The notes beneath the pieces were generated by a model. That model had not been told where the DNA came from. It ran no database searches and saw nothing but the letters and a program-made list of their open reading frames with translations. The position numbers were made by a program, and so were the translations under genes. DNA of 41,447 nucleotides from Porticoccaceae bacterium (GTDB lineage: Bacteria > Pseudomonadota > Gammaproteobacteria > Pseudomonadales > Porticoccaceae), in NCBI GenBank assembly GCA_002702725.1, contig PABE01000096.1, positions 1-41,447 of the forward strand, in the 5' to 3' direction. Below, piece by piece: positions 1,070 through 11,633 of the stretch. Within the stretch, counting starts at the first letter, position 1. Every line of letters starts with the position of its first letter.

Positions 1070-1097
1070 TTTAGTGCTAAAAAATAGCTGATACAAT
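1070..1097 (+). promoter_or_regulatory. weak candidate promoter upstream of the small-gene array
   Basis: TTTAGT (1070-1075) and TACAAT (1092-1097) are separated by 16 bp and lie 155 bp before the first clear array gene. The -10 region, GC-TG-ATACAA, also resembles the recurring GCGCATAYAA motif of this phage. It is offered only because an array of this size needs a promoter and nothing better is visible. Confidence 0.25.
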
Positions 1098-1162
1098 GGT
1101 CTAGGCCCCCTAATGCTTGGAAAAACCGGGCAGACATGGGCAGTTCCTGGGGAAGCCCCGGA

Positions 1163-1306
1163 GTGAATCCTGTGGAAACGCTGGGTTTGTTGGTTGCTTT
1201 TGTTTGGGAGTGCGTTAGGATGGTTGCGGAATTTGGCAACGGAGGTATGAGATGGGAAGAACTGTTTGCTGGTCTGCTTTTTGCGAATGGCTTGATTTCG
1301 GGATAA
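1163..1306 (+). CDS. possible small hydrophobic protein
   Basis: A 47-aa frame starts at GTG 1163 (VNPVETLG), with an in-frame GTG at 1172 preceded by GGAG. It is hydrophobic (LGLLVAFVWEC) and ends inside the first array gene, overlapping it by 55 bases. It could be a degenerate leading member or a leader peptide. It lacks the PCxxAF tail. Weakly supported. Confidence 0.25.
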   Translation: MNPVETLGLLVAFVWECVRMVAEFGNGGMRWEELFAGLLFANGLISG

Positions 1307-1455
1307 GCGCTGAGATCAGTCTGCGCGAGGCTGTATTCAGGCCATACGAGTACCGTACGGCTTTCCGCAGTCGCGATTTGCGCTGGCATGCGGTCCTGTT
1401 TAGCTATTCGCGGCATGGATTCCATGGATCGTGTTTTATCGCTTACGGTGAATGA
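1252..1455 (+). CDS. array gene 1, short hypothetical protein
   Basis: First clear member, 67 aa, with GGAGG at 1241-1245 placed 6 bases before the ATG. It begins MGRT and ends FIAYGE, an echo of the family tail. The middle is rich in Arg and aromatic residues and lacks the GEPxD box, so membership rests on size, position and the two ends. Confidence 0.6.
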   Translation: MGRTVCWSAFCEWLDFGISAEISLREAVFRPYEYRTAFRSRDLRWHAVLFSYSRHGFHGSCFIAYGE

Positions 1456-1459
1456 CGAG

Positions 1460-1648
1460 ATGGGTGGAAAGATTGAGAACAGGACCTGGCATTGCCGCAT
1501 TGCATTTTCTTCTAGTTGGCTTCTTGGCGGCAAATCACCGTACGTGTCCGAAGACCTGAGTAAGGCATGGGCTGACCTTTGGAATCCTGTGTGGGTGAGC
1601 CAAATTGGTATTGAGTACCAAGACTCTTGCAGAAGTGCGTGGAGTTAA
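1460..1648 (+). CDS. array gene 2, short hypothetical protein
   Basis: 62 aa starting MGGKIENR at ATG 1460, 4 bases after the previous stop. An upstream in-frame GTG-type start at 1388 would force a long overlap and is less likely. The tail SCRSAWS is a weak match to the family end, and seven Trp or Tyr residues are scattered through it. Confidence 0.55.
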   Translation: MGGKIENRTWHCRIAFSSSWLLGGKSPYVSEDLSKAWADLWNPVWVSQIGIEYQDSCRSAWS

Positions 1649-1649
1649 A

Positions 1650-1823
1650 ATGGACAAGAATTTCAGAAAGCAGTTCAACTGTTGGTTTTATTGCTTCTTC
1701 AAGCATGATGGTGCAGTACTTCGCGGGTATGACGACCGGATGCTGCGATTTAATGGTAACGTGCTGACTCTTCGTAGCGGCCACGCTGTTCCGATTCATA
1801 TTGTCGCATTCAGGGTTTCGTGA
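1650..1823 (+). CDS. array gene 3, short hypothetical protein
   Basis: 57 aa starting MDKNFRKQF one base after the previous stop. The tail AVPIHIVAFRVS fits the PxPCxxAF pattern with the Cys replaced. It shares an LRGY motif with array gene 4 (LRGYDDRMLRF here, LRGYESGFLRT there), suggesting that these two adjacent genes are a recent duplication. Confidence 0.65.
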   Translation: MDKNFRKQFNCWFYCFFKHDGAVLRGYDDRMLRFNGNVLTLRSGHAVPIHIVAFRVS

Positions 1824-2023
1824 TGGGCCACATCTCAAAAGACTGGTTTCCGTCCTGGTTTTCTTACATGCCTGCGTACGACATCAATGTGCTTCGCGGG
1901 TACGAGAGTGGATTCCTGAGGACGATTGGTGATGTGCCGTCGCTTTACGGAGATGCTGACGGGGGGACAATCTTTGATCCACCTTCTATCTTCTTGGTCT
2001 CTTTCAAGGGTGGTGTGAAGTGA
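1823..2023 (+). CDS. array gene 4, short hypothetical protein
   Basis: 66 aa. The ATG at 1823 shares its A with the preceding TGA; an in-frame GTG one codon upstream is possible. LRGYESGFLRTIGD aligns with LRGYDDRMLRFNGN of array gene 3. It ends PPSIFLVSFKGGVK, whose AAGGGTGGTGTGA region carries the ribosome-binding site of the next gene. Confidence 0.65.
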   Translation: MGHISKDWFPSWFSYMPAYDINVLRGYESGFLRTIGDVPSLYGDADGGTIFDPPSIFLVSFKGGVK

Positions 2024-2205
2024 ATCGAGACAGTTTTCTGTGCAGAAATCACAAGAAATGCATCGTCGCTAGGCTCGGAGACTCCCATGCGATTCTCTAT
2101 TCTGATGGCGAGTTTGTGTCTTGGTATCGTGGTGAGCCTGGCGACAGTTTTGGATTCTTCTTTCGTTATCCGCTTCCTTGCGGCATTGCTTTTTGGGGTG
2201 AATGA
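2020..2205 (+). CDS. array gene 5, short protein with full family motif
   Basis: 61 aa, GTG start within a 4-nt GTGA overlap. It is a model member: start VNRDSFL, FVSWYRGEPGDSFGF at about residues 33-47, then PLPCGIAFWGE at the end. The same FVSWYRGEP box recurs in array gene 14, 1.8 kb away, although the residues before it differ. Confidence 0.8.
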   Translation: MNRDSFLCRNHKKCIVARLGDSHAILYSDGEFVSWYRGEPGDSFGFFFRYPLPCGIAFWGE

Positions 2206-2402
2206 TGAACAGGAGTGAGTTTCTCAGTGCTATACATAAAAGACGGGACATGATCGATCGCTTCTTGCTTTCGCGCGCCAGTCACTATTCCCATCGCGTA
2301 TTCGTGTCCTGGGGTCATGGAGAGCCTACAGATGAATTCTCGGTTGTTCATATAACAAGTGGTCGCGTAATCCTTCCTTGTGCCGCAGCTTTCGGGGTGT
2401 AA
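2205..2402 (+). CDS. array gene 6, short protein with full family motif
   Basis: 65 aa, TGATG coupling to the previous stop. It starts MNRSEFL, has FVSWGHGEPTDEFS in the second half and ends ILPCAAAFGV. GGGGTG in the last codons of gene 5 serves as its ribosome-binding site. Confidence 0.8.
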   Translation: MNRSEFLSAIHKRRDMIDRFLLSRASHYSHRVFVSWGHGEPTDEFSVVHITSGRVILPCAAAFGV

Positions 2403-2403
2403 G

Positions 2404-2607
2404 GTGAATCGATCTATGTTCCTTTGCAGGCCATATCGCGGCGATCGCGCAACCCGGCTTTACGCAACTGCGTCTAACAGAGTGTCGCTCCACGACATGA
2501 GGAGATCGGTTATTTCCGTCCCTGCTCTTATCGGATGGCTGTCTACATCTGGCAGCATCAATTACGAGGTCTATCCCTGGGAGGCGTTTTATTATGAACA
2601 GGGCTGA
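2404..2607 (+). CDS. array gene 7, short hypothetical protein
   Basis: 67 aa from GTG 2404 (VNRSMFL), preceded by GGGGTG. The middle is unlike the GEPxD members and the tail (YPWEAFYYEQG) keeps only the AF pair. It overlaps the next gene by 14 bases. Confidence 0.7.
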   Translation: MNRSMFLCRPYRGDRATRLYATASNRVSLHDMRRSVISVPALIGWLSTSGSINYEVYPWEAFYYEQG

Positions 2608-2785
2608 ATTTTTGAGGCGGTATTGCAAGTGGAAGTTGATTTATGCAATTGATTCACCAGTTGTGTATCAATCCAGCGCAGAGATTTTTGCCCACTGGGG
2701 CAATGGTGAGCCTGCCGATGTGTTTGGATACTTTGCTGGCACCGTTTCCCCGTTCCCGGTGGCTATTTCCTTCGGAGGTGAATGA
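2594..2785 (+). CDS. array gene 8, short protein with full family motif
   Basis: 63 aa, starts MNRAEFL. It contains FAHWGNGEPADVFGYFAG and ends PFPVAISFGGE. GEPADVFGY is shared exactly with array gene 12. The final codons GGA GGT GAA TGA are a near-perfect Shine-Dalgarno for gene 9. Confidence 0.8.
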   Translation: MNRAEFLRRYCKWKLIYAIDSPVVYQSSAEIFAHWGNGEPADVFGYFAGTVSPFPVAISFGGE

Positions 2786-3027
2786 TGGGGAGGAGTGCGT
2801 TTCTCAATCGTCGCGTCAAGTCTGCGACTGTGCATTCATTGCATCGCGTGATTGCTGTCAAGTATCCAATGATTTCTACTGAATTCAGTCAAGGGTCGTT
2901 TGTCAGATGGGACGATGGAGAGCCTTTGGATCAATTCGGCTTAGCGCTGAACAGTAGTGGATATGTGGTTAAGCCTTGCGACACTGCTTTTGGGATAACG
3001 CGATCGTGGACAGATCAGAATTTTTGA
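2785..3027 (+). CDS. array gene 9, short protein with full family motif
   Basis: 80 aa from ATG 2785 (MGRSAFL), TGATG-coupled. It has FVRWDDGEPLDQFG followed by KPCDTAFG. Eleven extra residues after the family end (ITRSWTDQNF) arise because no stop occurs until 22 bases into gene 10. Confidence 0.75.
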   Translation: MGRSAFLNRRVKSATVHSLHRVIAVKYPMISTEFSQGSFVRWDDGEPLDQFGLALNSSGYVVKPCDTAFGITRSWTDQNF

Positions 3028-3194
3028 AGAAAGGGTGGAGAGCATTTCGCACTGTTCGCCTTGCCAGCGCACCCACAGCTGCGTCGGCAATTTTTGCTTT
3101 GATGCCGAGGAGCAATTGGTCATATACGCCGATTCGGGTAGTTGCGTGGCTAGACGGAGAAGACGCTCGTTACATGCCGTTCGAGGGTGAGTGA
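3006..3194 (+). CDS. array gene 10, short hypothetical protein
   Basis: 62 aa from GTG 3006 (VDRSEFL), which lies inside the 3' end of gene 9. The GEP box has decayed to AWLDGEDARY and the tail is MPFEGE. The GTG was chosen because it restores the family's N-terminal motif. Confidence 0.7.
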   Translation: MDRSEFLKKGWRAFRTVRLASAPTAASAIFALMPRSNWSYTPIRVVAWLDGEDARYMPFEGE

Positions 3195-3415
3195 TGGAAA
3201 GAACTGGATTCCAGAAGTCGAGCTATCCATTTCGCAATAGGCTACTGGCTCGCATGCCTATGTCATACAAACTCATGGTCTTCGATAACACCTTTCCCTT
3301 TGCTAGCTTTGCTAGGTCCCAAATAAACCCGACTGATGCACTTAGTGTTGGATGGCTTGCTTCCGCGTGTCCATGCAAGGGTTCTTTTTTGGAGATGAGT
3401 AATGGGTCGAAGTAG
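3194..3415 (+). CDS. array gene 11, short hypothetical protein
   Basis: 73 aa, MERTGFQ start, TGATG-coupled behind GAGGGTGAG. It ends CPCKGSFLEMSNGSK, so the PC-x2-SF core is present with a short extension into gene 12. The middle has ARMPMSY and NPTDALSVGW. Confidence 0.7.
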   Translation: MERTGFQKSSYPFRNRLLARMPMSYKLMVFDNTFPFASFARSQINPTDALSVGWLASACPCKGSFLEMSNGSK

Positions 3416-3599
3416 TGAGTTCTTGTTTAACGAGAGCACGGATCGCCGCATTTGGTACTTCGATAAGTTCAAGATGGTGGAATCTAGCTCATTGGTGTTT
3501 GTGCCATGGCATTTGGGTGAGCCTGCCGACGTGTTTGGATACATGTGTGGGATCCCGGCTCCATGCCATCTCGCTTTTGCAGCAGAGAGTGAGCGATGA
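3402..3599 (+). CDS. array gene 12, short protein with full family motif
   Basis: 65 aa, MGRSSEFL start overlapping gene 11 by 14 bases. FVPWHLGEPADVFGYMCG and then PAPCHLAFAAESER make it one of the closest matches to gene 8. Confidence 0.8.
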   Translation: MGRSSEFLFNESTDRRIWYFDKFKMVESSSLVFVPWHLGEPADVFGYMCGIPAPCHLAFAAESER

Positions 3600-3802
3600 A
3601 CAAGAAATTTATTCACAAGCATGTCTTCCAGATCAGGAGAAGATTGGACTCATACCTGCCGATGCATTACCGGGTTGAGATTGTCGACAAGCAACTCATA
3701 CTCTCAAGGTTTCAAGCCACCCCTAATTCTGCCTTTGGCACGAGATCATGGATTCGGAGAGATCCTTTCAGTCTGGCTTTCGAGGTGAACAATGGGACGT
3801 GA
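3596..3802 (+). CDS. array gene 13, short hypothetical protein
   Basis: 68 aa, MNKKFIHKH start, 4-nt overlap. It is strongly basic in the first half and has no GEPxD box. The tail is DPFSLAFEVNNGT; the GAGGTGAACAATG encoding its end supplies the ribosome-binding site and start of gene 14. Confidence 0.7.
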   Translation: MNKKFIHKHVFQIRRRLDSYLPMHYRVEIVDKQLILSRFQATPNSAFGTRSWIRRDPFSLAFEVNNGT

Positions 3803-4007
3803 AAAATTCCTAGTCAAGCAATACAAAGACAGAGTGGTTTGGCGCTTCGACATATACACACTGGCCAGCGCAACTGCTGATACTTTTGTGTCTTGGTATC
3901 GTGGAGAGCCTACAGACAGATTTGGGTATTTCACTGGAATGCCAGTTCCTTGCGCTACTGCGTTTGGTAGCACGTTGCCGGTTTGGAGATTGATTAGTGG
4001 GGCGTAG
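3792..4007 (+). CDS. array gene 14, short protein with full family motif
   Basis: 71 aa, starts MGREKFL. FVSWYRGEPTDRFGYFTG and PVPCATAFG match the consensus at almost every conserved position. It then runs 12 residues further (STLPVWRLISGA) into gene 15. Confidence 0.8.
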   Translation: MGREKFLVKQYKDRVVWRFDIYTLASATADTFVSWYRGEPTDRFGYFTGMPVPCATAFGSTLPVWRLISGA

Positions 4008-4182
4008 CCATTTTTGTGCGGCGGGTGGTGTTCGAGAAATTCGGATGAGAATGTTGATGTGGGTAATAAACCCCAGCAATCGCCATTTCTTGGGACATAC
4101 TGGTAGGATTGTCGTCAGCCCTGGTGGGCCTATTGCTGACGGGTTGTTTTCAGACTGCGCTTACAGCTTGGCATTTCGATGA
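3997..4182 (+). CDS. array gene 15, short hypothetical protein
   Basis: 61 aa from GTG 3997 (VGRSHF), overlapping gene 14 by 11 bases. It has no GEPxD box and is rich in Met, Arg and Gly; the tail is CAYSLAFR. Confidence 0.65.
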   Translation: MGRSHFCAAGGVREIRMRMLMWVINPSNRHFLGHTGRIVVSPGGPIADGLFSDCAYSLAFR

Positions 4183-4361
4183 ACAGAACCGGGACGTTAT
4201 TTTCTCCAAGCATGATTGACATAAATCGGCCACTGCGTCTTGGTAGGACTACCGACTATCGCGGCGAACGGGCGATTCGGTTGCTTTTTGCTGGAAGGAG
4301 TCTCACAACCCCTGCGGGAGGCGGCTTGAGATTGCACTGTTACTGGGCGTTTGATCAATGA
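4179..4361 (+). CDS. array gene 16, short hypothetical protein
   Basis: 60 aa, MNRTGTLF start, 4-nt overlap. The middle is basic with RTTDYRGERAIR; the tail HCYWAFDQ keeps C-x2-AF. Confidence 0.65.
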   Translation: MNRTGTLFSPSMIDINRPLRLGRTTDYRGERAIRLLFAGRSLTTPAGGGLRLHCYWAFDQ

Positions 4362-4534
4362 ATCGATCTGGCTTTCTTAAATGGACGTGGAAGTACGACC
4401 TTGTTGTCGAAGGGATTGCGCCAACGATCTACGGCTTCAGGAGCGACGGCCTGCTTGTCGATTTCTTCCATGGTGAAGCTTGCGACATGTTCGGCGACTC
4501 TGACAGAGTCGTTTGCGAATCTTCTTTCTGGTGA
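4358..4534 (+). CDS. array gene 17, short hypothetical protein
   Basis: 58 aa, starts MNRSGFLKWTWKYD, ATGA overlap with gene 16. LVDFFHGEACDMFGD is a recognisable form of the GEPxDxFG box (P to A, x to C). The tail is VCESSFW. The stop is TGA at 4532-4534, 3 bases before gene 18. Confidence 0.75.
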   Translation: MNRSGFLKWTWKYDLVVEGIAPTIYGFRSDGLLVDFFHGEACDMFGDSDRVVCESSFW

Positions 4535-4537
4535 AAC

Positions 4538-4723
4538 ATGAACAGATCTGAATTCTTGACGTATCGATGGCGATCTTATCGAACCAACAGGCTTCGCAGT
4601 TCACAAGATTTCGGCTATGGATTTTCTAGCGCGATCCTTGTTGGCTGGTCGTATGCTATCAGTCCTGTCGCCATGTTCAACATTGGTTTCACGGGCGATC
4701 CTGTTCGTGACTGCTGGAGGTAG
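4538..4723 (+). CDS. array gene 18, short hypothetical protein
   Basis: 61 aa, canonical MNRSEFL start. WSYAISPVAMFNIGF occupies the place of the GEPxDxFG box but keeps only W and F. It ends DPVRDCWR without the AF pair. Six Arg residues lie in the first 25. Confidence 0.7.
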   Translation: MNRSEFLTYRWRSYRTNRLRSSQDFGYGFSSAILVGWSYAISPVAMFNIGFTGDPVRDCWR

Positions 4724-4726
4724 CAA

Positions 4727-4930
4727 ATGAACCGATCTGAATTCCTTACCTTGAGGGCTAAGAATCATCTTCACTACTGGAAGACTTGTGAACAGCTACC
4801 AAGGGACTTCTATGACTCTGAGTTTTCTGGCCGTTGGGTTGCAGTGAACCCATTTGACAAGTTTGGTTCCCACATGCTTGTTCCGCACCAAGTGGATCGC
4901 GCTTTCCGCTTTCTCTACAAGGAGTCCTGA
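4727..4930 (+). CDS. array gene 19, short hypothetical protein
   Basis: 67 aa, MNRSEFL start behind GGAGG (4717-4721). WVAVNPFDKFGSHM is a variant of the W-x-P-x-D-x-FG box. The tail VDRAFRFLYKES is longer than usual, and its AAGGAG is the ribosome-binding site for gene 20. Confidence 0.75.
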   Translation: MNRSEFLTLRAKNHLHYWKTCEQLPRDFYDSEFSGRWVAVNPFDKFGSHMLVPHQVDRAFRFLYKES

Positions 4931-5131
4931 ATGAACAGAACCCTATTTGAGCTGCATCTTTTCTTTGACGACTTCGTTGGTTCATCCTCATTCCCTTCGG
5001 TGTGGAGTCCAGGCGATGACGACACCCATCCAGGATTTGATCCGCGCTGGGTGTACGGGATGCAGCTTGTTCGGATCGGATTCTACTCGGTGTGTATCCC
5101 CAGGTCTTGCTACAGTTCATTCGGAGGTTGA
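4931..5131 (+). CDS. array gene 20, short hypothetical protein
   Basis: 66 aa, starts MNRTLFELHLFF immediately after the previous stop. It is acidic and aromatic (FFDDFV, DDDTHPGFDPRW) and ends SCYSSFGG, whose GGAGG codes the last glycines and probably initiates gene 21. Confidence 0.7.
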   Translation: MNRTLFELHLFFDDFVGSSSFPSVWSPGDDDTHPGFDPRWVYGMQLVRIGFYSVCIPRSCYSSFGG

Positions 5132-5135
5132 TTCG

Positions 5136-5330
5136 ATGGGCAACAGAGTCTTTAAGCGTCGTGTGTTCTCTCGCATGCTCACGCTGATGTCGTCACATCA
5201 GTTCGGTCGAGAGGACGTTAGCGACCTATTAGTTAGTGCCAGCGTAGACACAATCTATGGGATTCATGTCTTCAAAGGTGAGTTCAATCAGTACGTTCCA
5301 GCTTCCTGCTTTGTGACATTCGAGGGTTAA
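5136..5330 (+). CDS. array gene 21, short hypothetical protein
   Basis: 64 aa from ATG 5136 (MGNRVFKRR), chosen over upstream in-frame starts because GGAGG (5123-5127) precedes it at normal distance. Basic N-terminus; tail ASCFVTFEG. Confidence 0.7.
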   Translation: MGNRVFKRRVFSRMLTLMSSHQFGREDVSDLLVSASVDTIYGIHVFKGEFNQYVPASCFVTFEG

Positions 5331-5331
5331 G

Positions 5332-5505
5332 ATGGGAAGAAGTTTTAAGAGTTCGTTCGGGGAGTGGTTTTCCTACATCCTGCGGCTAGACATCGGAATT
5401 ACTGACTACGACAGCGGCCTGCTGCTGCTGCGGTCTGGTGATCTTTATCGGGTCTACCCAGTCTATGGTAGGTTCTCGACGGTGCATTGTTTTGGGGGTG
5501 AATGA
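5332..5505 (+). CDS. array gene 22, short hypothetical protein
   Basis: 57 aa, MGRSFKSSFGEWF start, one base after the previous stop. The middle has four consecutive Leu codons (CTGCTGCTGCTG) within DSGLLLLRSGD. It ends VHCFGGE, and GGGGGTGA sets up TGATG coupling to gene 23. Confidence 0.7.
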   Translation: MGRSFKSSFGEWFSYILRLDIGITDYDSGLLLLRSGDLYRVYPVYGRFSTVHCFGGE

Positions 5506-5696
5506 TGGGAAACAAAACGGCTATCGTGGGGCATCGTGATTGCATTTACTCCTTGTATCGCGCAGTAACTTTCCAGCGGATTGATTTCAGCATATCGAAC
5601 AACATCGATGGAATTCATTTGTCTGACTGCAGGAACCCAGCGATATCGTTCCGCGCGACAAGCGGCGACTCTCCACTTATCTGGGCTTTCAGGTGA
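5505..5696 (+). CDS. array gene 23, short hypothetical protein
   Basis: 63 aa, MGNKTAIVGHRD start. It has no GEPxD box. The tail is SPLIWAFR, and AGGTGA in the stop region precedes gene 24. Confidence 0.65.
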   Translation: MGNKTAIVGHRDCIYSLYRAVTFQRIDFSISNNIDGIHLSDCRNPAISFRATSGDSPLIWAFR

Positions 5697-5699
5697 ACC

Positions 5700-5879
5700 A
5701 TGGATCGCGAAAATTTCCTTGCGTGGGGATGGAAAGATGCCATTCGCTACGAATTTCTTCGCAAGGTGTGCCAAATCAACGGGATTGCTGAAGGATTTGA
5801 CTACAGCTGCATCAGTGATCCAAGCAATACGATATTTAGTCCAAGAGTATGTGTTCTGGCATTTCAGGAGCGACAATGA
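5700..5879 (+). CDS. array gene 24, short hypothetical protein
   Basis: 59 aa from ATG 5700 (MDRENFLAWGWKD); AGGTGA lies just upstream. FDYSCISDPSNTIFSP then VCVLAFQERQ. An overlapping GTG at 5693 is in a frame that closes quickly, so it was not used. Confidence 0.7.
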   Translation: MDRENFLAWGWKDAIRYEFLRKVCQINGIAEGFDYSCISDPSNTIFSPRVCVLAFQERQ

Positions 5880-6091
5880 ACCGGAGTGGTTTTCTAACAG
5901 AAGGTGATCGATTCACTGGCAGGCTCGCTGACATTATCGGTGGATATGCCGGTGCAGATTTGCGATACTACGTCCTGGACGGACATTTCGTGAGTTGGGG
6001 AGATTCGTGCCCAATGATCTCATTTGATGGCAGCCGCGAGTGGTGGCGCCGCAGCGCTATCCTGGTTCACTTCTCTGAAGGCAAAATATGA
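5876..6091 (+). CDS. array gene 25, short hypothetical protein
   Basis: 71 aa, MNRSGFL start with 4-nt overlap; GGAG of the preceding 3' end is the likely ribosome-binding site. HFVSWGDSCPMISFDGS keeps FVSW and aligns with the GEPxDxFG box. The tail AILVHFSEGKI is divergent. Confidence 0.7.
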   Translation: MNRSGFLTEGDRFTGRLADIIGGYAGADLRYYVLDGHFVSWGDSCPMISFDGSREWWRRSAILVHFSEGKI

Positions 6092-6270
6092 ACAAGACTG
6101 GTTTTGTGTCGTCGTACGGCATAATGGGGCTTAGCAGGCCTGCTTATCCAAGACCACCTTGCGGTCCATTCTGGAGTGAGTATTTCTTCGGAAGGACTTG
6201 GACAACAGATCCGATGGATCGATTCGACTTGGTTGGTGGCGTCGAGATAGCTATGATGGCTCCATGCTGA
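6088..6270 (+). CDS. array gene 26, truncated at the conserved PC motif
   Basis: 60 aa, MNKTGFV start. WTTDPMDRFDLVGG is the box region. The frame stops at TGA 6268-6270 directly after MMAPC. The next in-frame codons are TAT CCT TTT TGG TGA (to 6285), which would complete a PC-x-Y-P-F-W tail like gene 5's PCGIAFW. The TGA therefore looks like a recent nonsense change or a readthrough site. Confidence 0.65.
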   Translation: MNKTGFVSSYGIMGLSRPAYPRPPCGPFWSEYFFGRTWTTDPMDRFDLVGGVEIAMMAPC

Positions 6271-6288
6271 TATCCTTTTTGGTGAATA

Positions 6289-6489
6289 ATGAACAGAAGT
6301 AAATTCCTTTCTTGGCAATCGAGAGTCTGCAGGTGCGACAAACTGTATTTTTCAGGATGTGATTTTGCAAGAGAGGTGGTTGACTGGTGCGAAGACATCT
6401 GGCCTGTTAGGTGCCCAACTGCGGTTCTTGGCATTGGTCCGATTCGTGACGAGTTCTGTTTAGTGTCTTTCCCGAGGTGTTCGTCGTGA
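6289..6489 (+). CDS. array gene 27, short hypothetical protein
   Basis: 66 aa, MNRSKFL start, 18 bases after the gene 26 stop, with TTGGTGA before it. It has six Cys residues, an unusual number for the array, and ends EFCLVSFPRCSS. Confidence 0.7.
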   Translation: MNRSKFLSWQSRVCRCDKLYFSGCDFAREVVDWCEDIWPVRCPTAVLGIGPIRDEFCLVSFPRCSS

Positions 6490-6689
6490 ATAGAAATTTC
6501 CTTGACAATTGCGACATGGTTTCTGTTCGCGTAGGCATTCGCTTGCACATGCCGACCTGGTACTCGGAGGAGTACTTTTCCTGGGGGAGGCGCTCGCAGA
6601 GCTTCAGTCCAGTTCAGTCATTCAACATGTCTTTCACGTCATTGTCATACTCACCTGGCGCCACTCCTTGGGGAGATGCTTTCCGATGA
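6486..6689 (+). CDS. array gene 28, short hypothetical protein
   Basis: 67 aa from GTG 6486 (VNRNFL), 4-nt overlap; a GTG three codons upstream is possible but loses the VNR start. It contains YFSWGRRSQSFSPVQSF, a W-to-F box of family spacing, and ends TPWGDAFR. GGGAGATG near the end precedes gene 29. Confidence 0.7.
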   Translation: MNRNFLDNCDMVSVRVGIRLHMPTWYSEEYFSWGRRSQSFSPVQSFNMSFTSLSYSPGATPWGDAFR

Positions 6690-6880
6690 ACAGAAGCCAC
6701 TTCCTTAAATGGAAATTCCAGAACGACTGCTTTTCGGGCATGTCTGCATCGATGGGATCGTACACCGAGAGATATTGCTCTAGTGGATTCTCGCACAAGA
6801 TGACGTTCAGTTCGTTTAGCCACGACATGCGTTTCGTTCCCGCGCCGTGTTGCATCGCATTCAGAGGAAAACTGATATGA
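6686..6880 (+). CDS. array gene 29, short hypothetical protein
   Basis: 64 aa, MNRSHFLKWKF start, 4-nt overlap. Serine- and phenylalanine-rich middle; tail PAPCCIAFRGKLI. The start is nearly identical to that of gene 31 (MNRSHFLNW). Confidence 0.75.
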   Translation: MNRSHFLKWKFQNDCFSGMSASMGSYTERYCSSGFSHKMTFSSFSHDMRFVPAPCCIAFRGKLI

Positions 6881-7071
6881 ACAGATCCTTTCCGCTGACC
6901 TGGCGCTATAGACGATTGGTTGATAATGAAGACCTCAATCGCTCACTGGCTCGCTACTGCATCTATGTGGACCATCCTCTAATAGGGTCGTGCAAATCGC
7001 CAAACGCTGCCTTTGGGAGCTGGGGGGGTGTTCCATTCCCGTGTTTGCTATCATTTGGGCCTACAGCATGA
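6877..7071 (+). CDS. array gene 30, short hypothetical protein
   Basis: 64 aa, MNRSFPLTWRYRR start, 4-nt overlap; GAGG lies upstream in the AGAGGAAAA run. NAAFGSWGG precedes the tail PFPCLLSFGPTA. Confidence 0.75.
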   Translation: MNRSFPLTWRYRRLVDNEDLNRSLARYCIYVDHPLIGSCKSPNAAFGSWGGVPFPCLLSFGPTA

Positions 7072-7262
7072 ACCGCAGTCATTTCCTGAACTGGGGAGGA
7101 AAACTCTCCGCTTGCGCCGGGATGCGAAACGCTACACCGCTAGTCTTCCTGAAATACATAAGGCATTCGCATGGTCAGGTGTCTGCAATGCTTGAACCTG
7201 TGCATGTGTTCGACATAATCGACCTTGTCCCGCTGCCTTGCTTTCTTGCGTTCGAGGACTAA
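7068..7262 (+). CDS. array gene 31, short hypothetical protein
   Basis: 64 aa, MNRSHFLNWGGK start, 4-nt overlap. LEPVHVFDIIDLV is the relic of GEPxDxFG and PLPCFLAFED is a full tail. Confidence 0.75.
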   Translation: MNRSHFLNWGGKLSACAGMRNATPLVFLKYIRHSHGQVSAMLEPVHVFDIIDLVPLPCFLAFED

Positions 7263-7264
7263 CA

Positions 7265-7438
7265 ATGAACAAGTCCACTGGAAGGGTTTCTGTGTTCTTT
7301 CTGATGCTATCGATGCAGCGAAAGATTTTGTTCCTTGGCGTTGGTGAAGAGATTGCTCATGTCGACGTGTCGGATGTTTTCATGCCTGTCTATGCAAATG
7401 GAATATCAGTGCCAAGTCCAGTGATCGGGAGTTTTTGA
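7265..7438 (+). CDS. array gene 32, short hypothetical protein
   Basis: 57 aa from ATG 7265 (MNKSTGRVSVFF), 2 bases after the previous stop; GAGG of FED is its ribosome-binding site. Hydrophobic first half (VFFLMLSM); it ends PSPVIGSF. Confidence 0.65.
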   Translation: MNKSTGRVSVFFLMLSMQRKILFLGVGEEIAHVDVSDVFMPVYANGISVPSPVIGSF

Positions 7439-7632
7439 TGGGAACTAGCATTCGCCGTGATATAAAGAAGTGTATTCAAGGAATCGAAGAAACCAGAGTA
7501 GAGATGCTCGGCAATTCATCGTTTCCGCCGCACATGTGCAATGTCTTCAGGTGGGGCACTGTGATTAACTACAATGGATTATTTCGCGCCGTTCCTGGAA
7601 ACCCACTAGAAGCATTCGCGGTGCGAAAGTGA
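7438..7632 (+). CDS. array gene 33, short hypothetical protein
   Basis: 64 aa, MGTSIRRDIKK start, TGATG-coupled. A charged, helical first half is followed by GNPLEAFAVRK. GEPxD box absent. Confidence 0.65.
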   Translation: MGTSIRRDIKKCIQGIEETRVEMLGNSSFPPHMCNVFRWGTVINYNGLFRAVPGNPLEAFAVRK

Positions 7633-7781
7633 ACGGAAGAATCCTCGGGCCAAGCTTCATAGCAATGTGGGACATACGCAACAAGGATTACATCCCATCG
7701 GAGTTCCTTGATGACCTGAGTGCAGTCAGCAGGCTGGCGATTATCCACGGTTCGATTGCTCGCGCGATAAGGATGCGGTGA
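7629..7781 (+). CDS. array gene 34, very short hypothetical protein
   Basis: 50 aa from GTG 7629 (VNGRILGPSF), in a 4-nt overlap. It has no PCxxAF tail and ends SIARAIRMR. The frame is supported mainly by the exact coupling on both sides (GTGA before, TGATG after). Confidence 0.55.
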   Translation: MNGRILGPSFIAMWDIRNKDYIPSEFLDDLSAVSRLAIIHGSIARAIRMR

Positions 7782-7975
7782 TGGACAGACAAGAGTGGAT
7801 GCTGGCGAACTTCTACAAGAGCAAGACCCTGAGGTCAATGCGCAGTTGTCACCTTAGTGGCTGGTATCTATGTGGCCTGTTCTATTCGCTGCTGGAGCCA
7901 ACTGACGAGTTTGATTTTGTTTCAGTCCACAGGTTTTTGTACATTCCGTATCCTTGCTGGCAGGCTTTCGAGTGA
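7781..7975 (+). CDS. array gene 35, short hypothetical protein
   Basis: 64 aa, MDRQEWMLANFYKS start. LLEPTDEFDFVSVH matches EPTDEF of gene 6, and PYPCWQAFE is a full tail. It is a clear family member despite an altered start motif. Confidence 0.75.
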   Translation: MDRQEWMLANFYKSKTLRSMRSCHLSGWYLCGLFYSLLEPTDEFDFVSVHRFLYIPYPCWQAFE

Positions 7976-8133
7976 ACAAATCTCACCTCAAATCACCTCG
8001 CCGATACAGGCACGAAATCATGGTCGGCCCGATGGCTGGCGCGATGCTTGTCGCTGGCCTACGATCGTTCGGATTCGGCCATCGGTTTCCGCATCACCAA
8101 AATTCTTGTTTCCTCGCCTGGAGGCCGTTGTGA
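7972..8133 (+). CDS. array gene 36, very short hypothetical protein
   Basis: 53 aa from GTG 7972 (VNKSHLKSPRRYRH), 4-nt overlap. Highly basic; tail NSCFLAWRPL with AW for AF. TGGAGG near its end precedes gene 37. Confidence 0.6.
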   Translation: MNKSHLKSPRRYRHEIMVGPMAGAMLVAGLRSFGFGHRFPHHQNSCFLAWRPL

Positions 8134-8321
8134 ACGATAAGGTCTATAACGCTACTTACATTCGGCACACCATGATGACTTGGATTTTGTCCACAGCGCC
8201 ACTGTATCATGGATGCATGGTTGATTGCGGGCTCCATCCGGTGCGATCAGCCAAGGGATTGTTGCGATTGCGACAGAACATGCCTCTTTCTTCTAACGTC
8301 TGTGTGGAGGCTTTCAAGTGA
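8130..8321 (+). CDS. array gene 37, short hypothetical protein
   Basis: 63 aa from GTG 8130 (VNDKVYNATYIRH), 4-nt overlap. Upstream in-frame starts would overlap gene 36 completely. Tail NVCVEAFK, with GGAGG in the codons for V-E-A. Confidence 0.65.
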   Translation: MNDKVYNATYIRHTMMTWILSTAPLYHGCMVDCGLHPVRSAKGLLRLRQNMPLSSNVCVEAFK

Positions 8322-8506
8322 ACAAGAGCAAAAAGATTACAACGGAATTGGCTGCATCGTTCAGGTACAGCGCGTACATTGCTGTTGATCTTTACTGCAG
8401 TGAACTTTTCGAGGCTGGATTTCGCTCACACTACAGACTTGACGTGATGACTGGCTACAGGCTTCAGGGCGGCGTGATCATCACTCCACTGCATGGGGTT
8501 TTTTGA
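8318..8506 (+). CDS. array gene 38, short hypothetical protein
   Basis: 62 aa from GTG 8318 (VNKSKKITTEL), 4-nt overlap with GGAGG 13-17 bases upstream. The tail TPLHGVF lacks Cys. GEPxD box absent. Confidence 0.65.
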   Translation: MNKSKKITTELAASFRYSAYIAVDLYCSELFEAGFRSHYRLDVMTGYRLQGGVIITPLHGVF

Positions 8507-8507
8507 G

Positions 8508-8684
8508 ATGAACAAAAGTCTTTTCAGTCGGCATTGGTACAGAATGATGGATTACCGGAAAGAAGCTGGGATGTGTTATTCAACATGGACCTTGCTGCCA
8601 GAAAATACATCGCCGACACACTCTTTTGCATCGCTGTATTCTTACTGCGGATATGTACCACTTCCGTACATGAAGGCGTTTTGA
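8508..8684 (+). CDS. array gene 39, short hypothetical protein
   Basis: 58 aa, MNKSLFSRHWYRM start, one base after the previous stop. LPENTSPTHSFASLY is the degenerate box; the tail PLPYMKAF has Tyr in place of the conserved Cys. Confidence 0.7.
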   Translation: MNKSLFSRHWYRMMDYRKEAGMCYSTWTLLPENTSPTHSFASLYSYCGYVPLPYMKAF

Positions 8685-8845
8685 TGAACAAGCTAAAGTA
8701 CAGGCGGTTCACTTCGCTGGCGCTGGACAGGCCTATGTCACTTGCGGACATGGTCAGGCTTGAGTCTCCACTCGCCTTTGACCCGGTCGGATGCTTCGGC
8801 GGATTCTATGCACCTGCGCCTTGCTGGGACGCATTTTTCCCATGA
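8684..8845 (+). CDS. array gene 40, very short hypothetical protein
   Basis: 53 aa, MNKLKYRRFTS start, TGATG-coupled; upstream in-frame codons lie wholly within gene 39. LESPLAFDPVGCFGG then PAPCWDAFFP, an intact tail. Confidence 0.7.
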   Translation: MNKLKYRRFTSLALDRPMSLADMVRLESPLAFDPVGCFGGFYAPAPCWDAFFP

Positions 8846-9018
8846 ACAAAACAATCATTACTCGCTATTGGTACTTTGGGGTAGACACACGGCGCGAGAT
8901 GTGCGAAGGAGGCCTTCAACCGTTGTTCCCAGGAAGCAGAAATCCGCCTAGAACTTTTGACGCATGGATCTGTGGACAATGCCAAGTCCCTCGTCCAGCA
9001 TACATCGGCTTTGTTTAG
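8842..9018 (+). CDS. array gene 41, short hypothetical protein
   Basis: 58 aa, MNKTIITRYWYFG start, 4-nt overlap. Tail VPRPAYIGFV (Cys lost). It is followed by the only sizeable gap in the array, 62 bases. Confidence 0.65.
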   Translation: MNKTIITRYWYFGVDTRREMCEGGLQPLFPGSRNPPRTFDAWICGQCQVPRPAYIGFV

Positions 9019-9020
9019 GG

Positions 9021-9048
9021 TTGCCTTCATTCTTCTATTTGCTACGAT
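9021..9048 (+). promoter_or_regulatory. possible internal promoter in the array gap
   Basis: TTGCCT (9021-9026) and TACGAT (9043-9048) are 16 bp apart in the one clear gap of the array. Four of six -35 bases fit the sigma-70 consensus. A second promoter here would help express the distal units, but the evidence is thin. Confidence 0.25.
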
Positions 9049-9080
9049 AGTTGCGGAAAATGTCACCAGCGGAGTTTGCG

Positions 9081-9254
9081 ATGGGTGGGTTCGTTAAATA
9101 CAAGTGGCTAGACAGATTGAGGATGAATCGGTCGATGTACCAAAGAATCCCGAGTTTTGTTGATGTCGAGCTGGAAGCCTGTGGGTTTGCTTGGGACGAC
9201 GGAGGATGGGCCATCATTGAGAACGCTCACTTCTTCGAGGTTCACTTTACATGA
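9081..9254 (+). CDS. array gene 42, short hypothetical protein, start uncertain
   Basis: 57 aa from ATG 9081 (MGGFVKYKW) with GGAG 6 bases upstream. The family start motif MNRSMYQ appears at residue 15 (ATG 9123), so either the gene gained an N-terminal extension or the true start is 9123, giving 43 aa. Tail FFEVHFT is divergent. Confidence 0.55.
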   Translation: MGGFVKYKWLDRLRMNRSMYQRIPSFVDVELEACGFAWDDGGWAIIENAHFFEVHFT

Positions 9255-9406
9255 ACAAGAAGTTTAGTTGCTGGCCGGTATCTACAGAAGGATCCCTGGA
9301 AATCGCTTTGTTCTTATCCGCGACTGGCTACTTTGAAATAGTGCATTACCCGGAGAACGCAGGATTTGACTGGGTTCCCGAGATTGCTTTTTATGGAGGG
9401 TACTAA
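9251..9406 (+). CDS. array gene 43, very short hypothetical protein
   Basis: 51 aa, MNKKFSCWPVSTE start, 4-nt overlap. VHYPENAGFDWVPEIAFYGGY retains the final AF; GGAGGG codes the last glycines and precedes gene 44. Confidence 0.65.
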   Translation: MNKKFSCWPVSTEGSLEIALFLSATGYFEIVHYPENAGFDWVPEIAFYGGY

Positions 9407-9585
9407 TGGGCTCTTCGCTAATCGGATTTAGCCATTTTAGCGCCACTGGCGTGCTAGGTATTCACGGCTTCCTGTGCAAGATCGACATTCCACACAGGCG
9501 ACCGTACGTCGATGTTACGCCAGGTGGATCGCTGTATTTTTCGTGCAGTTTGACGAGCCCAATGTTCGAGGGTTTTGGGATATGA
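9406..9585 (+). CDS. array gene 44, short hypothetical protein
   Basis: 59 aa, MGSSLIGFSHFS start, TAATG-coupled. Small-residue-rich; tail SPMFEGFGI. No GEPxD box. Confidence 0.6.
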   Translation: MGSSLIGFSHFSATGVLGIHGFLCKIDIPHRRPYVDVTPGGSLYFSCSLTSPMFEGFGI

Positions 9586-9752
9586 ATAAATTCATCATTG
9601 CTGATCAGGAATACGAAGAGCAGTTTCCCGAGATAACCTGGTTTGCCTTTGCGTTTCCAAGTTTTTTTCACGAATTTCATGCTAAGAGAAGGATTCGGCC
9701 ATTCATGATGCATCCGCGAATTGCCTTTGGAGACAGGTGGGCTTTGATATGA
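9582..9752 (+). CDS. array gene 45, short hypothetical protein
   Basis: 56 aa, MNKFIIADQEYEE start, 4-nt overlap; GAGGG of gene 44 is the ribosome-binding site. Aromatic middle (WFAFAFPSFFHEF); tail MHPRIAFGDRWALI. Confidence 0.65.
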   Translation: MNKFIIADQEYEEQFPEITWFAFAFPSFFHEFHAKRRIRPFMMHPRIAFGDRWALI

Positions 9753-9901
9753 GCGGAAGGATCAAGGGCTTGTATCCAGGATATTTCTTTCAGTATCTCG
9801 CCATGGTGCATGGGCACATCACAGTGCTGGATACAATCTCCGGACCTGACGATGCGTTTACTCAAGCCGCGTTTGGAGTGTGGTCGTGGAGAAGAATTTG
9901 A
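9749..9901 (+). CDS. array gene 46, very short hypothetical protein
   Basis: 50 aa, MSGRIKGLYPGYF start, 4-nt overlap. It ends TQAAFGVWSWRRI; the VWSWRRI extension overlaps gene 47 by 16 bases and resembles the FWSWGI end of gene 47. Confidence 0.6.
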   Translation: MSGRIKGLYPGYFFQYLAMVHGHITVLDTISGPDDAFTQAAFGVWSWRRI

Positions 9902-10020
9902 AAGCAATCGCGCCTCGGCATGTCCCAGTATCTGGCATGTACGAGATTTTTCTGCTCGGACGGAGCTACACTCCAAACCCAAGCTTGACTTATGTTGTGT
10001 TCTGGTCGTGGGGGATCTGA
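9886..10020 (+). CDS. array gene 47, shortest array member
   Basis: 44 aa from GTG 9886 (VEKNLKAIAPRH). The tail YVVFWSWGI echoes gene 46. It probably lost its N-terminal part. It is TGATG-coupled to gene 48. Confidence 0.5.
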   Translation: MEKNLKAIAPRHVPVSGMYEIFLLGRSYTPNPSLTYVVFWSWGI

Positions 10021-10229
10021 TGGGCAGCTTCGGAGATAAGTTGAAAAAGAAGGTGGTTTCGGCTGATTGTGCAATGTACTCAGTGCTGATGCGCGAATCA
10101 CCAGGAGATTGCCTGGAAATGTCACCAGCACTCGTTGGTGGATGGATCGCATGGGTGACAGTTGAAAGCGTAATCAGGATCACTCTGCGCCCTTCTCATA
10201 CAGTACGCCCTGCATTTGGAGTCGATTGA
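10020..10229 (+). CDS. array gene 48, short hypothetical protein
   Basis: 69 aa, MGSFGDKLKKKVV start, TGATG at both ends. Basic N-terminus, valine-rich middle, tail TVRPAFGVD. An N-terminal MGxFGxKL resemblance to gene 49 (MGKFGKRLF) suggests recent duplication. Confidence 0.65.
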   Translation: MGSFGDKLKKKVVSADCAMYSVLMRESPGDCLEMSPALVGGWIAWVTVESVIRITLRPSHTVRPAFGVD

Positions 10230-10396
10230 TGGGGAAGTTCGGCAAGCGACTATTCATGGATGTCGTGGCGAAATATGAAGCTGAAATGTACGGCAGCCTT
10301 AATCGACTGCGCCACAACAGTCGCTACGGAGTGGTTCCTGATCTAACGATGGTACTTTCGTCGCTTGTAAGCACGACAGTGTTCTTCAATGAATAG
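10229..10396 (+). CDS. array gene 49, short hypothetical protein
   Basis: 55 aa, MGKFGKRLFMDVV start, TGATG-coupled. RYGVVPDLTMVLSS lies in the middle; the tail TTVFFNE overlaps gene 50 by 8 bases. Confidence 0.65.
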   Translation: MGKFGKRLFMDVVAKYEAEMYGSLNRLRHNSRYGVVPDLTMVLSSLVSTTVFFNE

Positions 10397-10580
10397 GATT
10401 GACATCTTGCCGGTGCCGCGCGGACTAACAAAGCAGTACGTTTTGGATATGATTTATCAGTTCGGATATGCGACCGAATTCTTGGATATGTGCTTTAGGG
10501 TACGCATCGAGGCGCAAAGTCAAGATGTCCCCATTCTCCACATTCCGATTGATGCAATTCACGAGGCTTTCTATGGGTAG
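10389..10580 (+). CDS. array gene 50, short hypothetical protein
   Basis: 63 aa, MNRIDILPVPRGL start. It is hydrophobic and acidic without the GEPxD box; tail IDAIHEAFYG, 8-nt overlap with gene 51. Confidence 0.65.
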   Translation: MNRIDILPVPRGLTKQYVLDMIYQFGYATEFLDMCFRVRIEAQSQDVPILHIPIDAIHEAFYG

Positions 10581-10734
10581 ATCTTGGATCTTTCGCGGCA
10601 TATCCAGTCTGTCAGTTGCAGAAGATATCGGCACTGGATGGTTGGTTGCAGCGTGCTGGGATGAAGATTACGCATGCGCTCTTGACCCATTCGTTGCGCC
10701 AATCCCCTCGTACTCAAGGATAGCGTTTCTGTGA
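10573..10734 (+). CDS. array gene 51, very short hypothetical protein
   Basis: 53 aa from ATG 10573 (MGRSWIFRGISS). WDEDYACALDPFVAPIP holds a D-x-F step, and the tail IPSYSRIAFL keeps AF. The ATG is preferred to upstream starts because it gives the MGRS motif. Confidence 0.65.
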   Translation: MGRSWIFRGISSLSVAEDIGTGWLVAACWDEDYACALDPFVAPIPSYSRIAFL

Positions 10735-10934
10735 ACAGGCTCAGTCTTAGGTCATGGTGGACACATCATGACTCCAAAATGTGGAACATTTCCCTAGGCA
10801 GCCAAATTGGAAACATGAGATTCAGCAGAATCTACGCTCCGCTAGTCGGGAGCTTTGTTGTAGCAAACCCTGGTTCGTGCCATCCTCTGTTTCTCGGAGA
10901 CAACTACATCTACGATGCATTCTCGCGCATATAA
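10731..10934 (+). CDS. array gene 52, short hypothetical protein
   Basis: 67 aa from GTG 10731 (VNRLSLRSWWTH), 4-nt overlap. Tail NYIYDAFSRI. The bases encoding SRI and its stop are also the GCGCATATAA motif described separately. Confidence 0.7.
   Translation: MNRLSLRSWWTHHDSKMWNISLGSQIGNMRFSRIYAPLVGSFVVANPGSCHPLFLGDNYIYDAFSRI
10925..10934 (+). promoter_or_regulatory. GCGCATATAA motif, candidate phage promoter element
   Basis: The decamer equals those at 21226 and 37093 and lies 30 bases before the non-family gene at 10965. Here it is also coding sequence for the end of array gene 52, so chance is harder to exclude than at the other sites. Confidence 0.4.
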
Positions 10935-10964
10935 AAGACGGGGATCTTTTTATGGAGCGCGTGG

Positions 10965-11153
10965 ATGAAGGGGATGCGGAACAAGGATGGTTCCAGCGAG
11001 TTGCTTCCAAAGTTCAAGACGATGCCTGTAGCGCTGCCGCAGGACATCGGCGAAGCACTTGAGAAGGCGCAGGCGGATATCTGCAAGACAATCAGGTCTA
11101 CCGTTGTTGAAGTACTCAGGGATGGTGGTTTCTCAGAGAAAGCGAGAGAATGA
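10965..11153 (+). CDS. small hypothetical protein, not of the array family
   Basis: 62 aa from ATG 10965 (MKGMRNKDGSS), with GGAG at 10953-10956 about 8 bases upstream. Unlike its neighbours it is predicted mostly helical and charged (DIGEALEKAQADICKTI, VVEVLRDGGFSEKARE), lacks the array start and end motifs and has few aromatic residues. It overlaps the next gene by 4 bases. A competing frame starting at 10952 was rejected for its poor composition. Its place inside the array and the motif ahead of it suggest a different, possibly regulatory role; this is inference. Confidence 0.65.
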   Translation: MKGMRNKDGSSELLPKFKTMPVALPQDIGEALEKAQADICKTIRSTVVEVLRDGGFSEKARE

Positions 11154-11419
11154 ATCCGTTGAATTTTTGCATCTACCCTGACTTCTTTGCGATGTGCGAC
11201 TTGATTCCACATCGTGGATGTAATCCTTCTTTTCTGACCGGCATTTCTGGCAGGACTGTCGCAACGCCATTTGGGTTTAGTCGCGCCTCTGGGCCAGCAA
11301 ACATTAGCTCATCGTCGGATTCCACAAGAATGTCGTTTGGCGACTACGGCATTGCTGGTTTTTACACATGGACTGGCGGCAGGGAGGATGCTGGGACGTG
11401 GAACCACTTGATTCGCTGA
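11150..11419 (+). CDS. array gene 53, enlarged divergent member
   Basis: 89 aa, MNPLNFCIYPDFF start, 4-nt overlap. It is rich in Gly, Ser and Thr and ends GTWNHLIR with no PCxxAF tail, so membership is doubtful. It may be a fusion of two decayed units. Confidence 0.55.
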   Translation: MNPLNFCIYPDFFAMCDLIPHRGCNPSFLTGISGRTVATPFGFSRASGPANISSSSDSTRMSFGDYGIAGFYTWTGGREDAGTWNHLIR

Positions 11420-11607
11420 GATTGTATCACTACGAGTATCACAACATAGCGCTCGCAGAGATGTTCCTGGAAAGGTGTGTTCAGGACGGTACGCTCATGC
11501 ATTCCGACTCGATGTTTGAAGTGGTTAGAATAAATACACCGGCAGCGATTAGATTGGCGTTTTTTGATTTGCAGAGATCAGAGAATTCCTTTATATTCAC
11601 CAAGTAG
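11398..11607 (+). CDS. array gene 54, last member
   Basis: 69 aa from GTG 11398 (VEPLDSLRLYH), with GGAGG 9-10 bases upstream; an in-frame ATG at 11368 would give 79 aa and a 52-base overlap. NTPAAIRLAFFDLQ contains the AF end, followed by 12 extra residues. The promoter for the next operon lies in its last codons. Confidence 0.6.
   Translation: MEPLDSLRLYHYEYHNIALAEMFLERCVQDGTLMHSDSMFEVVRINTPAAIRLAFFDLQRSENSFIFTK
11569..11597 (+). promoter_or_regulatory. sigma-70-like promoter for the metabolism operon
   Basis: TTGCAG (11569-11574) and TATATT (11592-11597) are separated by exactly 17 bp, and the methyltransferase ATG is 37 bases downstream. This is the best host-type promoter in the window and sits where the small-gene array ends. 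Confidence 0.55.
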
Positions 11608-11633
11608 ACAAAAACCGCAACCGAGGATCAGTC

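Follow-up and report, generated by a model that had tools for sequence, protein, structure and literature searches.

A tandem array of about fifty small, diverged genes on a phage contig, possibly an arsenal of host-takeover or anti-defence proteins

Introduction

Phages acquire counter-defences mostly by collecting unrelated genes, and the genes with which phage SPO1 takes over its host are not known to be paralogues of each other. Tandem duplication with fixed ends and a fast-changing middle is a feature of the diversified effector families of parasites and plant pathogens and of poxvirus gene accordions; we know of no bacterial-virus counterpart of such families. Here we describe an array of about 51 to 54 tandem mini-genes on contig PABE01000096.1, which was assigned to a Porticoccaceae bacterium (assembly GCA_002702725.1) and whose entire 41,447 bases form the stretch analyzed here (the window). 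The closest described phage systems are the SPO1 host takeover module, reported to comprise 26 mostly small early genes (PMC6873191), and the counter-defence gene tifA of T4, for which segmental amplification by recombination under selection has been reported in laboratory evolution (PMC9391042).

Results

Layout of the array

The array occupies a quarter of the contig, and its consecutive mini open reading frames (ORFs) all lie on the plus strand. A dynamic-programming chain was run over positions 1241-11620 with a scoring that rewarded length, ATG starts, a Shine-Dalgarno trimer and short gaps and made no use of the start motif. The curated set contained 51 ORFs and 3 candidates at the 3' end, 54 in total, with products of 43-89 residues (median 63), as follows (chain starts that differ are in brackets).

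1252..11607 (+) whole array, about 51-54 tandem mini-genes
1252..1455 (+) member ORF (MGRTVC...), array edge, weak
1650..1823 (+) member ORF, similar to its neighbour at 1823 (z 8.5)
1823..2023 (+) member ORF
2020..2205 (+) core member, full motif FVSWYRGEPxDxFG...PLPCGIAF
2205..2402 (+) core member
2404..2607 (+) member, profile-supported, start re-anchored to GTG 2404 (chain 2416)
2594..2785 (+) core member
2785..3027 (+) core member
3006..3194 (+) member, profile-supported, GTG start 3006, MDRSEFL (chain TTG 3024)
3194..3415 (+) member ORF
3402..3599 (+) core member
3596..3802 (+) member ORF
3792..4007 (+) core member
3997..4182 (+) member ORF (MGRSHF)
4179..4361 (+) member ORF (MNRTGT)
4358..4534 (+) core member
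4538..4723 (+) member, profile-supported
4727..4930 (+) member, profile-supported
4931..5131 (+) member ORF (MNRTLF)
5136..5330 (+) member ORF
5332..5505 (+) member ORF (MGRSFK)
5505..5696 (+) member ORF
5700..5879 (+) member, profile-supported
5876..6091 (+) seed member
6088..6270 (+) member ORF (MNKTGF)
6289..6489 (+) member, profile-supported
6486..6689 (+) member ORF (MNRNFL)
6686..6880 (+) member, profile-supported, PAPCCIAF end
6877..7071 (+) member, profile-supported
7068..7262 (+) member, profile-supported, PLPCFLAF end
7265..7438 (+) member ORF (MNKSTG)
7438..7632 (+) member ORF
7629..7781 (+) member ORF
7781..7975 (+) member, profile-supported, PYPCWQAF end
7972..8133 (+) member ORF (MNKSHL)
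8130..8321 (+) member ORF
8318..8506 (+) member ORF (MNKSKK)
8508..8684 (+) member ORF (MNKSLF), similar to 8842 (z 9.0)
8684..8845 (+) member ORF, PAPCWDAF end
8842..9018 (+) member ORF (MNKTII)
9123..9254 (+) short member ORF (MNRSMY), start re-anchored (chain 9081)
9251..9406 (+) member ORF
9406..9585 (+) member ORF
9582..9752 (+) member ORF
9749..9901 (+) member ORF
9886..10020 (+) member ORF
10020..10229 (+) member ORF
10229..10396 (+) member ORF
10389..10580 (+) member ORF
10573..10734 (+) member ORF (MGRSWI)
10731..10934 (+) member ORF (MNRLSL)
10965..11153 (+) 3'-edge ORF, probably no family member
11150..11419 (+) 3'-edge candidate ORF
11398..11607 (+) 3'-edge candidate ORF (...AIRLAFF...)

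On the plus strand the chain ran to 57 ORFs; 32 of its junctions were exactly -4 or -1 nucleotides (nt), and 38 of its starts had the form M[NGD][RK]. The same procedure on the minus strand gave 11 ORFs, a single such junction and no such start, and on the plus strand of the remaining window 25 ORFs, 3 junctions and no starts. In 20 dinucleotide-preserving shuffles scored in the same way the corresponding means were 17.9, 2.9 and 0.4 (maxima 39, 9 and 2). Alternative rules gave comparable contrasts. With ORFs of at least 44 residues, ATG or GTG starts and gaps of -20 to +20, the longest chain reached 41 in the array; the remainder of the window gave 10, the minus strand 5, and none of 100 shuffles more than 5. 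Narrowing the gaps to -14 to +5 changed these values to 17, 7, 4 and 4. An earlier note, made from the letters of this DNA, had proposed an array at 1252-11607, and the chain and its junctions, far above the shuffles, confirmed it at those coordinates.

The curated junctions also had the stop-start overlaps of a coupled operon, with 19 of 50 at -4 and 11 of 50 at -1, and overlaps of 4 and 1 nt are reported to couple translation in bacteria (PMC10666635). Spacing from start to start was mostly 150-210 nt. The 51 members were spread over all three frames (19, 17 and 15), so the array is not one broken ORF. TGA was the stop codon in 40 of 51 members, and the starts were 40 ATG and 10 GTG; this tally was made before the start of the member ending at 3194, then listed with an upstream codon that is not a start, was moved to GTG 3006. 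Knowledge of the motif guided the re-anchoring of three starts (2404, 3006 and 9123), none of which enters the count of 38 M[NGD][RK] starts. The chain was interrupted for about 100 nt around 9018-9123, and the array is fuzzy at both ends (1252-2020 and 10,934-11,607). These results come from one contig of one assembly.

Evidence for translation

Across 51 junctions, sequence information was concentrated in the Shine-Dalgarno block (-11 to -6) and the start codon, and thereafter mainly at the first and second codon positions of residues 2 and 3 and the first position of residue 4, with further information at the first and second positions of residue 6 and the second of residue 7. Third codon positions held at most 0.35 bits, with R encoded by CGN or AGR and S by AGY or TCN. 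Conservation at the junctions tracks codons, not DNA, and this is strongly supported.

A Shine-Dalgarno site of at least 4 nt was present ahead of 76% of the genes in the array (n = 51), 46% of other phage genes (n = 26) and 22% of random ATG or GTG codons (n = 2000). The comparison is biased toward the array because the chain rewards a Shine-Dalgarno trimer, whereas for most of the other genes the first start codon was used. When trained on 11 known phage genes, codon statistics preferred the assigned frame for 47 of the 51 member interiors and gave a positive value for 44. Compared with those 11 genes, F, W, Y and S were over-represented in the array proteins and K, E, N and Q under-represented; low K and E were also found in wrong-frame ORFs, whereas high F and Y were not. 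In a neutral simulation at 0.43 substitutions per site, which counted stops only, left indels uncounted and treated the copies as independent, a mean of 6.6 of 51 frames stayed open (maximum 12).

No tRNA genes, and no Rfam families at gathering scores, were found in the window. That the mini-ORFs are chance frames over a repeated DNA or RNA element is, in our view, scarcely credible. The barely alignable middles and the low-confidence structural models would be expected of such frames, but they are opposed by the shuffle controls, the codon-position pattern, the use of three frames, the coding potential and the lack of an Rfam match. The mini-ORFs appear instead to be translated under selection, which these sequence patterns support well.

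Relationship and divergence of the members

The consensus start of the members is M-N/G-R/K-S/T-x-F-L, and the core of the best-kept copies reads F-V-x-W-x-x-G-E-P-x-D-x-F-G ... P-x-P-C-x-x-A-F. Motifs were counted against 334 controls, which were wrong-frame, other-region and minus-strand ORFs taken from their first start together with 51 shuffled members. The strict start M[NG][RK]SxFL occurred in 10 of 54 members and no control, and the looser M[NGD][RK] in 40 of 54 members and 7 controls. The strict end PxPCxxAF was present in 7 of 54 members and in none of the controls; [AS]F within the last 12 residues was found in 35 of 54 and 32 of 334, respectively. The shared start and end described in the earlier note were therefore real but looser than stated, the strict forms being confined to 10 and 7 members.

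With a profile built from 8 seeds, 10 of the 43 other members scored better than every control, the weakest of them at E 0.044 and the strongest control at E 0.54. Such a search across the members, as the earlier note had suggested, thus extended the family beyond its seeds and left the other 33 unlinked by it. After removal of the first 9 residues only 3 of 43 clearly exceeded the best control (E 0.015, 0.057 and 0.08 versus 0.54), so most middles have no recognisable homology, much as the note's description of them as barely alignable had implied. Iterating the profile on the members, with no control set, gave 21 strong and 4 weak scores. Members toward the 3' end were shorter and harder to recognise, an effect to which the seeds, all from the 5' half, contribute.

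Neighbouring members were more alike than distant ones: the Mantel correlation of similarity with distance along the array was r -0.196, lower than in any of 2000 permutations. This held for the middles alone (r -0.137, again lower than in all 2000). Three well-kept members have in common an 81-nt stretch with 67-74% DNA identity, and DNA identity between members reached at most 86% over 21 nt. An origin of the array by tandem duplication, as the note had proposed, is supported by the Mantel correlation and the 81-nt stretch. Among the six best members (15 pairs), the mean proportions of nonsynonymous and synonymous differences (pN/pS) were 0.39/0.72 for the core and 0.64/0.77 for the middle, and at the start pN was 0.31 with pS saturated; the alignment behind these values is small and uncertain, and sites in it are saturated. 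The contrast between middle and core supports the note's further suggestion of fast diversification, in which the middles would have diverged fast with the start and core more constrained.

It is unlikely, in our estimation, that the array is a decaying dosage amplification, in which one useful small gene was amplified for dose and most copies, being redundant, drift and are slowly lost. T4 is reported to amplify tifA under selection (PMC9391042), and the shorter, less recognisable 3' members, the near-saturated middles and the weak synonymous codon bias are all compatible with decay. However, neutral drift closes most frames in the simulation described above, and Shine-Dalgarno sites and coding signal persist along the array. 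Near-identical copies, as left by recent amplification, were not found, protein identity being at most 43% to the first row of each alignment.

The conserved start and variable remainder could also suggest precursors of ribosomally synthesized and post-translationally modified peptides, with leaders and variable cores, or another secreted peptide repertoire. We consider this highly improbable, as the best-kept members conserve both ends and vary in the middle, and none of the 29 proteins scanned from the window outside the array, some of them in one library only, was identified as a modification enzyme.

Search for relatives

Searches for relatives of the array returned no family or layout match, and the earlier note's statement that no system of this layout is known was upheld as far as we searched. 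Profile searches of the PDB gave a best E of 0.2; a likeness of W-x-x-G-E-P to the C-type lectin motif was dropped as these searches gave nothing. Single members had nothing convincing among annotated phage records (best E 0.2 among the matches listed) and no match among plasmids. Scans with alignment A2 matched 21 stretches in IMG/VR and 8 in GTDB, none of which was confirmed. A DNA pattern of three starts matched 2 loci in IMG/VR and 34 in GTDB genomes (3.4-13.9 kb each), with a longest chain of 5, and none of these 36 loci matched profile A4 at E 0.1. The IMG/VR and GTDB scans need a near-exact peptide or DNA pattern, so they may miss distant arrays, and sister arrays may be missed because records very near the window may be absent from the scanned collections.

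Profile A1 against 97 genomes, and A4 against 390 and 398 genomes (overlapping samples that include the source genome), revealed no convincing relative. Eight weak A4 matches lay outside the source genome, three of them (G814, G862 and G1081) with E below 0.001 for one genome, and all were judged to be chance: two (L029 and L030) overlie longer ORFs that are read in different frames, and the remaining six are interrupted by stops within the matched stretch.

Searches with other genes of the phage also failed to locate a second array. Terminase, portal, capsid and NAMPT had no confirmed locus in IMG/VR; the phage is thus isolated there, and poor sampling may be part of the reason why the array was not found elsewhere. 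Methyltransferase and thymidylate synthase searches led to 4 loci, all without an array (longest chains 2-3). Two Manatee Spring phages, MW202524 (NAMPT 51%) and MW202497 (terminase 28.5%, E 5e-6), likewise had no array, with longest chains of 4 and 3. Capsid and portal found nothing among annotated phages, and the capsid had a weak match in one of 368 other genomes, on contig G214:C13. No description of such an array was found with narrow search terms in the open-licence PubMed Central literature, and the words tandem, paralog, array, duplicat and cluster are absent from a review of phage small proteins (PMC11323111).

Genomic context

The window is contig C137 of a 3.56-Mb, 165-contig metagenome-assembled genome. 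The contig is that of a tailed phage, probably a podovirus judging from its genes; its binning into this genome is weak evidence for the phage host. No exact terminal overlap of at least 11 nt, as a circular or terminally redundant contig would have, was found. Besides the genes below, a thymidylate synthase and a sigma factor were named in the window.

1..1251 leader region, plus-strand ORFs of at most 68 residues, and one 167-residue ORF on the minus strand reaching into the array
11634..12428 (+) N6/N4 DNA methyltransferase (PF01555), next gene 3' of the array, marking its end
25969 (+) major head protein (capsid), phrog_9953
28670 (+) terminase, phrog_2
30809 (+) portal, phrog_1216

The array runs in the same direction as the adjoining nucleotide-metabolism genes and is distant from the head genes, which suggests early expression, although the head genes are also on the plus strand. 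This position bears on a further possibility, that the paralogues are subunits of a heteromeric shell, filament or scaffold made in fixed proportion through coupled translation, the shared ends serving as subunit contacts and the middles giving each position its identity. The -4 and -1 overlaps at 30 of 50 junctions would suit such an assembly, but fifty different subunits would be extreme for a 41-kb phage contig, the middles are under little constraint (pN near pS in six members) and the array adjoins nucleotide-metabolism genes at a distance from the head genes. We therefore regard a heteromeric assembly as improbable.

The ORF at 22505-23929 encodes a protein that matches the resolvase N-terminal domain in two stretches. 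The sigma-factor ORF, listed on the opposite strand at 21800-22891, overlaps the start of this ORF, and the true sigma start may lie inside. The resolvase-domain protein, encoded 11 kb from the array, could be the enzyme of a system in which the members are silent cassettes, a reservoir of recombination donors for rebuilding one expressed copy. This is very unlikely given the low DNA identity between members (no more than 86% over 21 nt, and 67-74% in the three that share the 81-nt stretch), the lack of an exact site recurring at the junctions, and the presence of a start in every member and a Shine-Dalgarno site in most.

Other features of the contig were noted. A PRPP-synthetase-like gene, below the Pfam cut-off, adjoins a NAMPT gene at 16821-19213, and the closest phage NAMPT is that of MW202524 (50.8% identity); the two genes are perhaps a pair for salvage of nicotinamide adenine dinucleotide (NAD). 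A phage beta clamp is encoded at 14634-15800, a release-factor-like protein with an RF-1 domain (GGQ; phrog_19918, E 3.6e-45) at 20663-21217, and a 291-residue glycine-rich protein (phrog_2295) at 35086-35961. Relatives of the RF-1-domain protein include uncultured phage records of 595 and 485 kb. AT skew in 1001-12000 was negative across the array (T exceeding A on the coding strand); across the structural genes it was mostly positive. None of the window proteins scanned was recognised as a DNA polymerase, and the contig had no match to PF00476. A divergent family A DNA polymerase is encoded at 4981-6903 of G000:C135 (L072), a phage-like contig of 15,736 bases in the same metagenome-assembled genome that could be a missing part of this phage or a separate phage; it had no array members.

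Discussion

We tentatively favour, with a confidence that falls somewhat short of even, the reading that the array is a coupled arsenal of small proteins for host takeover or anti-defence, which arose by tandem duplication and rapid divergence. Its duplication and its selection on translated products are supported, and we infer the time of expression, the targets and the function. The chain, the stop-start overlaps, the codon-tracking conservation, the open frames in all members and the similarity of neighbours are its firmest parts, each either directly observed or strongly supported. We also counted in favour of an arsenal the NAD-salvage-type gene pair in the same phage, as a pair of NAMPT and PRPP-synthetase genes elsewhere counters NAD-depleting defence.

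Based on these observations, we propose that the array began as a single gene of about 190 bp that underwent repeated tandem duplication, and that the copies diverged until only the start, the core of the best-kept copies and the ribosome-binding junction remained shared. The row would be read early in infection as one polycistronic message from a promoter that likely lies in the leader (1-1250), and ribosomes would pass from gene to gene by termination-reinitiation, such that many small proteins are made together. By analogy with described takeover and counter-defence proteins, the products may bind and disable different host or anti-phage targets, with the fixed ends forming a folding frame and the free middle a target-contacting surface.

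Several results weigh against this account. No sigma-70-like promoter site was found in the leader (1..1251). Synonymous codons alone favoured the assigned frame in 38 of 51 members, which is a weak test, and the mean synonymous-codon score was 0.006 per codon in the array versus 0.083 in the 11 known phage genes; with its low K and E, the amino-acid make-up is partly intermediate between known genes and wrong-frame ORFs. The profile tested with controls unites only 18 of 51 members, and the remaining 33 are tied to them only by position and layout, start and weak neighbour similarity. The middles are barely more alike than control ORFs (mean z 0.34 versus 0.10), and the common ends may mirror the reading apparatus more than a common fold. 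Searches of Pfam, PHROGs, NCBIfam and PADLOC with 25 of the 51 members identified nothing significant (best E 0.03), a SAVED-domain hint at E 0.037 being under its cut-off. Structure prediction, a check that the earlier note had suggested, produced two models (AlphaFold, two jobs) of low confidence (predicted local distance difference test scores of 60.5 and 48.8), too weak to use. Neither the homology searches, which gave no convincing homologue, nor these models point to a function. Finally, no second phage with the array was found in which copy number could be compared between relatives.

A more far-reaching form of the arsenal reading, drawn by analogy with parasite antigen and effector families, is that of a true diversifying phage multigene family, in which fixed ends would preserve a common fold around a hypervariable middle, each copy would meet another host or defence target, and copy number would vary with hosts. 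We think this possible but doubtful. As a layout, a fifty-member orphan row in one overlapping operon that fills a quarter of a phage contig is, we believe, new: we found no counterpart, and we know of no phage with such a row.

If the arsenal reading is correct, the array would represent an alternative route to counter-defence, with a repertoire bred from a single fold within one genome, and its members would form a stock of small natural binders that could be screened against defence systems. It would likewise be a natural experiment in translational coupling across fifty cistrons, and would allow duplication and divergence to be measured in a compact genome.

Comparison with known systems

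Like the SPO1 module, the array groups many small genes that have ribosome-binding sites within a single region, the Shine-Dalgarno comparison being one that favours the array, and its proposed use, many small proteins acting against different host processes, would be analogous. Unlike the SPO1 module, the array has about twice the genes, of which at least 18 are paralogous, and they overlap from stop to start. We withhold assignment to the SPO1 type, since early expression and interference with host processes are, for the array, proposals. The phage-like contig G214:C13 (39 kb), whose capsid is weakly related (19% identity, E 7.9e-4), resembles the array in having contiguous small ORFs; it differs in that its longest chain is 7 and its products are unrelated by eye, with no common start or end. 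With T4 tifA the array has in common gene amplification within a phage, and it differs in consisting of about 50 strongly diverged copies. The effector families and poxvirus accordions differ from the array in belonging to eukaryotic viruses and pathogens and in having far larger genes.

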